Positions 1,778-3,791 of a stretch of 64,000 nt of DNA are shown here, piece after piece. The first letter of the stretch is position 1, and each line of letters starts with the position of its first letter. Source of the DNA: Methanothrix sp. (lineage in GTDB: Archaea; Halobacteriota; Methanosarcinia; Methanotrichales; Methanotrichaceae); the NCBI GenBank assembly GCA_029907715.1, contig JARYLI010000001.1, positions 1 through 64,000 of the forward strand. The letters are read 5' to 3'. Made by a program: the position numbers and the translations under genes. The notes beneath the pieces were generated by a model. That model had not been told where the DNA came from and did no database searches. It saw nothing but the letters and a program-made list of their open reading frames with translations.

Positions 1778-1944
1778 GTGCAAATCTGGGGTTCGGATAT
1801 GCTGCGAGGTTCGATTATACTTGCTGCATTTGGCAAAGTTCGAGGTGCAATCTGGCATCCATCTCTGATCATGCATCTCAGTGCGAGATCTTCGGATGTC
1901 CTGTGCTCTGCTGGGGCGCTTCCGGCGTCGTTTCAATCAACAGA

Positions 1945-2006
1945 TTAAAATAGGAGATTCACAGAAAAGATAACAGTTTCAGTCTGTATCGAATTTGGAT
2001 GGAGGG
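1945..2006 (+). promoter_or_regulatory. promoter and RBS of the secreted-protein gene
   Basis: A TATA-like TTAAAATA at 1945-1952 lies in an A-rich stretch and predicts a transcript start near 1975. A strong ribosome site GGAGGG at 2001-2006 sits 6 nt before TTG 2013, and this decides the start of the downstream gene. Confidence 0.45.
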
Positions 2007-2012
2007 AAAGAT

Positions 2013-3038
2013 TTGAAGAGAGTCATACTGCTGCTTGCAGTTATGGTTATTATAGGGATGTCCTCAGTGCACGCCAAATATGGGCTTTCTACGGATTTAC
2101 AGCCAGAGGGTTATAAGTACCCAGGGGAGAAGGGCGGATATCCCAACGAGGTCGCAGAGAAGAACGTGACCTTCAACTTCGAGCAGGACGTCCAGGGCAG
2201 CGGCTACTTCATGACATACAGGTATGCCAAGGCCGGCGCGCTCGCCTTCAAGGACTACGTCCATGGCTCGGGCTCCATAGACAACGAGTTCGTGATGTTC
2301 ACGCAGGAGCTCGATAAGAACACGCACCCGATAGATGCCGACTGGGTCGACGAGAACGTCTCGTGCATCTCCGTGAAGGAGGACAACGTGATGGTCTACT
2401 CGCCGTACCAGTTCGCGATCGGCGCGGGCTACTACGCTGTGAACCCGCTCGTCTTCGACTCGCTGCTCAAGGAGAAGACCTGGATAAAGAACTACCGCGC
2501 AGGAACCTCGATGCACCATGAGGTCGAGTACGCTCACGGCATAGACAAGGAGCTTGAGGTCCTTGCGAAGGAGAAGTACTTCCACCAGTACGATCCGGTG
2601 TACGAGGGAGTGGGCTACACACAGATGAAGATCAACGAGCATGTCGACAACGGCAAGGTCCACTTCGGAGTGCTCCAGGCATCTTCAGATTACACAGCGA
2701 ATGCGGCCGTGCCAGCATATCCAGGCACTGCACTGACCAGCAGCGCCCTGAGCGATATACGGGCTTACAAGAACCCGGCGATAGAGATCGATGAGGACTA
2801 CTTCGGTACATACGACATAACCAAGAACATGACACTGAACGTGCCGTACAAGCTCACCCAGAAGAGCGAGGACTGGCTCCCGTGCTGCTCTGGCGGCTGG
2901 GCTGATATTCCGGCTGGACTGAAGAAGGGCTTCGGCTCGAGCGCTGAGGGCATATTCGACTGCTCCTGCCTCGCGAAGGCAAGGGCCGGAATGTACGGGC
3001 CGACTGATGTGAACCCGCCATTCAAGGCGTGGGCTTAG
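2013..3038 (+). CDS. abundant secreted glycoprotein, sheath/surface-protein candidate
   Basis: About 341 residues from TTG 2013. The N-terminus KRVILLLAVMVIIGMSSVHA is a Sec signal peptide with cleavage expected after VHA. The mature chain is polar, Tyr-rich and without a membrane anchor. It has three N-glycosylation sequons (NVT, NVS, NMT) and six cysteines, most near the C-terminus (CC...C.C). From about 2150 to 3030 the codons are strikingly uniform (AAC, GAC, TTC, GAG, CTC preferred), more so than in neighbouring genes, which points to very high expression. A perfect hairpin plus T-rich tract follows the stop. I do not recognise a characterised family. Because Methanothrix filaments sit in a tubular protein sheath, a sheath or S-layer-like structural role is a reasonable inference, not proven. 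Confidence 0.6.
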   Translation: MKRVILLLAVMVIIGMSSVHAKYGLSTDLQPEGYKYPGEKGGYPNEVAEKNVTFNFEQDVQGSGYFMTYRYAKAGALAFKDYVHGSGSIDNEFVMFTQELDKNTHPIDADWVDENVSCISVKEDNVMVYSPYQFAIGAGYYAVNPLVFDSLLKEKTWIKNYRAGTSMHHEVEYAHGIDKELEVLAKEKYFHQYDPVYEGVGYTQMKINEHVDNGKVHFGVLQASSDYTANAAVPAYPGTALTSSALSDIRAYKNPAIEIDEDYFGTYDITKNMTLNVPYKLTQKSEDWLPCCSGGWADIPAGLKKGFGSSAEGIFDCSCLAKARAGMYGPTDVNPPFKAWA

Positions 3039-3072
3039 ATAGGGATCCATCCCTATCCTTTCTGTTTTATTC
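3038..3072 (+). terminator. hairpin terminator after the secreted-protein gene
   Basis: GATAGGGAT and ATCCCTATC form a perfect 9-bp stem with a CC loop (3038-3057), starting on the last base of the TAG stop and followed by a T-rich stretch to 3072. Such strong intrinsic-like hairpins are unusual in this window and fit a highly transcribed gene. Confidence 0.6.
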
Positions 3073-3140: not shown

Positions 3141-3791
3141 ATGCAGATGCGCTTCGAGGAATGGGATAGGATATACAAGAGGATCCTTGCCGACTTCAGC
3201 TTCTCCAGATCCAGGGATGAGGAGGCGGCGCGCGTTCTCTCCTCTCTTCTCGATTCCATCGATCAGATCACGCTGGACGAGCTCAAGGATGCTGTTCGCG
3301 GCAGGGATGTGGTGGTGTGCGGCAACGCTCCCCGCCTGAGAGATGAGATCGGAGGAATAACTCCCTCGGATGTTGTCGTGGCAGCAGACGGCGCCACATC
3401 AGTGCTTCTTGAGCATGATGTGATCCCAGACATCATAGTGACAGATCTGGATGGATGCATTCCGGACATCATCGATGCCAATCGCAGGGGATCTGCGGTC
3501 GTGGTGCATGCGCACGGGGATAACATCGATAAGCTGAAGGAGCACGTGCCGCATCTCAGGCGTGTCCTGGGAACGACGCAGGCATCGCCGCTGGAGAACG
3601 TCCACAACTTCGGAGGGTTCACAGACGGCGACAGGGCCGTGTTTCTCGCACTCGAGTTCATGCCCAAAAGCATCAGACTGATCGGGTTCGATTTTGATGA
3701 TGAGAACGTCACGCCCAGAAAGTCCAAGAAGCTCAGATGGGCGAAGGTGCTCCTTGAGATCGCGCTCGGACCCAGATGCACAGATCCCTGA
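3141..3791 (+). CDS. mptE: 6-hydroxymethyl-7,8-dihydropterin pyrophosphokinase, MptE type
   Basis: Archaeal MptE-like enzyme (DUF115/COG1634). It transfers pyrophosphate from ATP to 6-hydroxymethyl-7,8-dihydropterin in the tetrahydromethanopterin (or folate) pathway. The 216-residue length is normal. Family segments are visible: [34 protein letters not shown] (Asp-rich catalytic loop), [29 protein letters not shown] and IGFDFD. It carries the archaeal fold and not the bacterial FolK fold. ATG 3141 follows TCAATTAA with no clear ribosome site, so translation from a short or absent leader is likely. It lies 61 bp upstream of aspS on the same strand. Confidence 0.9.

Follow-up and report, generated by a model that had tools for sequence, protein, structure and literature searches.

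A probable sheath (SH) family protein gene of Methanothrix, linked to mptE and carrying a hypervariable N-terminal tail

The window, i.e. the whole stretch of 64,000 nucleotides of Methanothrix sp. contig JARYLI010000001.1 that was analysed, harbours at positions 2013..3038 (plus strand, as are all features of this locus given below) an ORF of 341 amino acids which runs from a TTG start to a stop codon and, judging from homology and predicted structure, very probably specifies a structural component of the filament sheath of Methanothrix, an SH protein. The gene is present in six congeneric genomes (protein identity 86–100%), and comparison of the locus showed that the ∼80 nt preceding the TTG are nearly unchanged across these species, while the sequence farther upstream diverges. 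This near-invariant block (1930..2012), with a TATA-like TTAAAATA at ∼1945–1952, may be read as a conserved promoter and 5′ leader. The ribosome binding site GGAGGG (2001..2006) ends 6–7 nt 5′ of the TTG and, together with the start codon, is invariant in all six species. Residues 1–21 (2013..2075) form a signal peptide, MKRVILLLAVMVIIGMSSVHA, in which a small-residue site comes after a hydrophobic stretch; as read from the sequence, a hydrophobic leader of 21 residues is common to all orthologues. Downstream of the gene, an intrinsic-terminator-like hairpin with a T-rich run was found at 3038..3072; its 8-bp stem (3038–3057) is kept in six of six species, and the folding energy of the region is -16 kcal/mol. 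Hence, the ORF, the signal peptide, the strong ribosome binding site and the hard terminator proposed in the initial annotation were all borne out. The conserved downstream neighbour is an mptE-like gene (3141..3791; PF01973, E 2.5e-30).

The description of the product as Tyr-rich, with cysteines clustered at the end, also held: Tyr accounts for 7.3% of residues (rank 2 of 148 proteins of the same genome; rank 4 for aromatic residues), and four of the five cysteines are found among the final 51 residues (hypergeometric P 0.002). In the alignment of 39 sequences C291 and C292 are invariant and C317 and C319 are conserved in at least 90%; these residues of the C-terminal tail are encoded at 2883..2969. 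The three N-X-S/T sequons (N51, N115, N272) are present as claimed, and two of them (N51 and N272) are retained from genus to genus in the family alignment, but their number shows no excess over chance (3 observed against 1.65 expected, P 0.22), so that the label of a glycoprotein must be considered unproven.

Codon usage was compared with that of ribosomal and mcr genes, 168 genes being ranked. The whole-gene codon adaptation index (CAI) of 0.808 is not an ordinary one (rank 7 of 168, among mcr and other highly adapted genes) and exceeds the values of the two flanking genes (0.697 and 0.732), in agreement with the earlier claim of a codon choice unlike that of the neighbours. However, this choice is not very uniform, as had also been claimed: the effective number of codons of the whole gene (45.2) is at the median, and adaptation is distributed as a mosaic, with CAI values of 0.895 and 0.914 in the core, 0.615 in the signal peptide, 0.499 in the N-tail and 0.661 in the loop of residues 224–250. 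Codon adaptation of the gene is therefore confined to its core. None of the other genes in a set of 123 shows as large a drop over its first 47 codons, and all six species display this mosaic pattern. Elsewhere in the window, a small rubrerythrin/EncFtn-like protein encoded at 311–616 has a CAI of 0.788, the ninth of the 168 genes.

The suggestion that the gene encodes a filament sheath protein or another bulk envelope protein fits the homology data, since the product belongs to the archaeal SH proteins, a family that Medvedeva et al. 2024 (PMC11576556) defined. Comparison of the window family (alignments A3 and A4) with the family of Mthe_0668 (A2) by hhalign gave 96.5% and 97.9%, the latter, for A4, being a profile-profile match with an E-value of 4.5e-13 over 234 columns; it should be borne in mind that the hhalign score is partly due to the signal peptide and that the E-values are those of single comparisons. 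Members of the family also match Mthe_0668 in phmmer, with E-values down to 1.5e-6. A phylum-wide search revealed secreted relatives in another class, including a bridging SH-type protein which matches A4 in hhalign at 99.3% (E 5e-20); in single-sequence BLASTP this bridging protein is similar both to the window protein (E 2e-8) and to Mthe_0668 (E 1e-14). The C-terminal signature (GTYDITKNMTL...DWLPCCSGGW), which together with the last core strand occupies residues 251–296 (2763..2900), contains positions invariant in A3 and A4 and is common to Mthe_0668.

As regards the features by which SH proteins are recognised, the protein lies within the range of 150–350 aa without Ig domains (341 aa, no Pfam domain), all orthologues carry the signal peptide leader, homology to established SH proteins is detected by phmmer, hhalign and BLASTP, and the genome contains several copies, namely two to three relatives of the window type and six of the Mthe_0668 type. 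With the SH proteins of the 2024 study (PMC11576556) it shares secretion, a length below 350 aa, a predicted beta core and the C-terminal signature G-x-F/Y-x-I-x-K...DWLPC. It differs from Mthe_0668 in its longer Cys-rich tail (CC...CxC); moreover, it adjoins mptE and carries hypervariable segments, of which the text of that paper covered here makes no mention. By inference, the protein may also resemble SH/MspA of Methanospirillum hungatei (WP_011449234.1; PMC6242892, PMC10593813) as a secreted beta-arch monomer with cysteine-mediated links, whereas the latter has 377 aa and a cap that is alpha-helical with one beta sheet. Searches of Pfam, NCBIfam, PHROGs and PDB sequences gave no convincing match.

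A paralogue with 35% identity is located elsewhere in the same genome. The paralogue at G000:C4:74012-75022 (loci L002 and L118) has the CC...FDCTC tail signature of the window protein; its surroundings resemble a transporter locus, with a gene for a periplasmic binding protein (PF01497) next to it. A third, divergent relative lies at G005:C1:70157-70906 of the PT-like genome, and its position is close to that of the gas vesicle genes (numbers Mthe_0055-0073). In another class (loci L136, L137, L138), an SH-type gene is grouped in conserved order with genes for two further secreted proteins, which are possible sheath partners. Among the relatives found by the phylum-wide search, some lie in very long frames, and one of these is a repeat-rich adhesin-like protein with an SH-type segment, in agreement with the "sheath adhesins" of Medvedeva et al. 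2024 (PMC11576556).

Family members were found in all 50 Methanotrichaceae genomes searched (11 genera), and the named strong relatives belong to Methanothrix, Methanosaeta, Methanotrichaceae and Methanocrinis or to MAGs with broader labels. In 10 of the 10 genera where both genes could be placed, one SH copy is situated directly upstream of mptE on the same strand. By coordinate comparison this linkage was seen in 31 of the 35 family genomes with an mptE match; the other four involve a contig end or are not resolved among the matches listed. In the related Methanosarcinales genomes inspected, the gene upstream of mptE encodes an aminoacyl-tRNA synthetase instead, putatively of the ileS type according to its KMSKS region. 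The linkage is read here as a marker of positional orthology and not as a functional link. No prior description of it was found, nor do Medvedeva et al. 2024 (PMC11576556) report a conserved context for SH genes.

To place the gene in a known genome, G005 was taken as that of M. thermoacetophila PT. Counting genes back from the S-layer gene Mthe_0677, two secreted SH-type ORFs were found at 668 and 667, and the window orthologue, the only SH-type gene nearby, at count 624, one doubtful overlapping ORF included. The gene is thus the probable orthologue of Mthe_0625, which ranks third in transcription among the SH genes of Medvedeva et al. 2024 (PMC11576556), where 100:67:29 is given for M. thermoacetophila PT.

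AlphaFold2 predicted an all-beta model with long antiparallel strands (six or seven strand elements, among them several with a length of 28–29 residues), a mean pLDDT of 75, values above 90 over much of residues 48–282, and disordered N- and C-tails. In the first part of the core (residues 48–223; 2154..2681) the pLDDT is mostly above 85. The SH core is defined by two beta sheets of six antiparallel strands each, and no SH structure was found in the libraries searched. For the Mthe_0668 family, whose alignment was too uniform, AlphaFold2 gave an unusable model (pLDDT 35). Foldseek against PDB and BFVD returned no match with E <= 0.001, the listed TM-scores being <=0.25 (<=0.15 query-normalised), as expected because the SH fold has not been deposited as coordinates; the listed pore-protein matches, with their low TM-scores, were rejected as a chance likeness of long hairpins.

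Two hypervariable segments depart from this conserved frame, namely the N-tail with which the mature protein begins (residues 22–47; 2076..2153) and the loop of residues 224–250 (2682..2762). Between species, pN is 0.009–0.012 in the core (0.012 in its first part), 0.32 in the N-tail and 0.20 in the loop, and both segments fall in low-confidence parts of the model (pLDDT ∼45–50 over most of the loop). Identity between the window and PT amounts to 99% in the leader, the first core part and mptE and to 100% over the terminator region; in the N-tail it falls to 47%, and there the window shares 87% with G002, a species that is farther off at the flanking loci. Over the signal peptide and N-tail, 45 of 45 informative sites join the window with G002, as against 15 of 129 elsewhere; these sites are not independent, and the nominal P of 5e-29 overstates the case. 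The block 2013–2153 (141 bp) combines a species affinity other than that of its flanks with poor codon adaptation. From the alignment, such a clean block between near-identical flanks looks like recombination of the signal peptide and N-tail between species. Alternatively, the PT/G003 lineage could have diverged rapidly from one ancestral type, but this requires either that two lineages underwent the same change or that the block has another species tree. A search of six genomes for a donor of the variable segments yielded orthologous genes only; accordingly, neither silent cassettes nor a template repeat of the diversity-generating type came to light. No prior description of the hypervariability of residues 22–47 and 224–250 or of the block exchange was found, and a literature search combining Methanothrix sheath protein with recombination gave no paper with all terms.

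MspA (Mthe_1069) was reportedly described in 2015 as the amyloid sheath protein of Methanothrix; the initial annotation had referred to a sheath reported to be amyloid. Both proteins are secreted, abundant and from the same genus, but M. thermophila MspA (ABK14853.1; ∼60.9 kDa, a 575-aa frame at G005:1154521) is much larger than the 341-aa window protein and unrelated to it in sequence (BLASTP E 0.20; hhalign probability 3.6%, in the signal region only). Identity or homology with MspA is thus highly improbable; it was rejected at the sequence level and could return only through a common fold. According to Medvedeva et al. 2024 (PMC11576556), MspA was probably misidentified as the main sheath component. 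An equally improbable reading is that of a secreted enzyme or binding protein: the core is highly conserved, but neither sequence nor fold gave a significant match in Pfam, NCBIfam, PHROGs or PDB, no enzyme family that would contradict a structural role was found, and the beta core has no recognisable active site. Somewhat more could be said for an envelope protein that has nothing to do with the sheath, such as an S-layer protein, as the product is a secreted, acidic and conserved protein of surface type; this nevertheless seems improbable, because the S-layer duplication domain is absent from it (NCBIfam and TIGR01567 searches, the latter placing S-layer proteins elsewhere; Pfam likewise without a match) and the homology points to SH proteins instead. 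A scan of viral contigs revealed no relative and hence, at the sensitivity of the scan, no sign of recent viral origin.

A different question is whether a protein of the SH fold serves here as a bulk ring subunit or has a special role in a filament plug, hoop junction or adhesive surface. The single mptE-linked locus apart from the main SH genes, the distinct Cys-rich tail and the existence of paralogues with other tails speak for the latter, as does the proposal, in the 2024 paper (PMC11576556), that small-cap SH proteins may join hoops or support plugs. However, production in bulk is suggested by the very high codon adaptation of the core and by the rank that the probable counterpart in PT holds among the published transcripts, and a special role is considered possible, if rather unlikely.

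Taking the protein as a structural SH protein, its gene would be strongly transcribed and translated, as the conserved leader and ribosome binding site, the codon-adapted core and the published high transcript level of the probable counterpart in PT suggest. The product would be exported by the Sec route with cleavage of the signal, and residues 48–282 are predicted with high confidence to fold into long antiparallel beta strands. By homology, rings would form through its edge-to-edge polymerisation with SH proteins of the Mthe_0668/0667 type; the ring model that has been published concerns other SH proteins. The flexible Cys-rich tail may make disulfides between rings, a role that has been proposed for M. 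hungatei. Neither the N-tail, which varies between species by recombination according to the sequence evidence, nor the 224–250 loop is part of the conserved core, and both are probably exposed. Sheath subunits may tentatively be viewed as modular, a near-frozen amyloid-like frame being combined with an exposed N-terminal tip (and side loop) exchanged by recombination, which would diversify the filament surface in an antigen-like manner, possibly under pressure from host-specific parasites or viruses. Patescibacteria attach specifically to Methanothrix filaments (PMC9600506); that variation of the tip results from recognition of the sheath by parasites or viruses, and that parasites select it, is speculation.

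The identity of the builder of the Methanothrix sheath is disputed between MspA and the SH proteins, and the gene described here represents a precisely placed, family-wide conserved sheath candidate with mptE as a stable landmark. Its orthologues can therefore be recognised in any Methanotrichaceae genome and sought among the proteins of prepared sheaths. The tip, being variable and subject to recombination, suggests which part is turned outwards and may set the specificity for partners, parasites and viruses.
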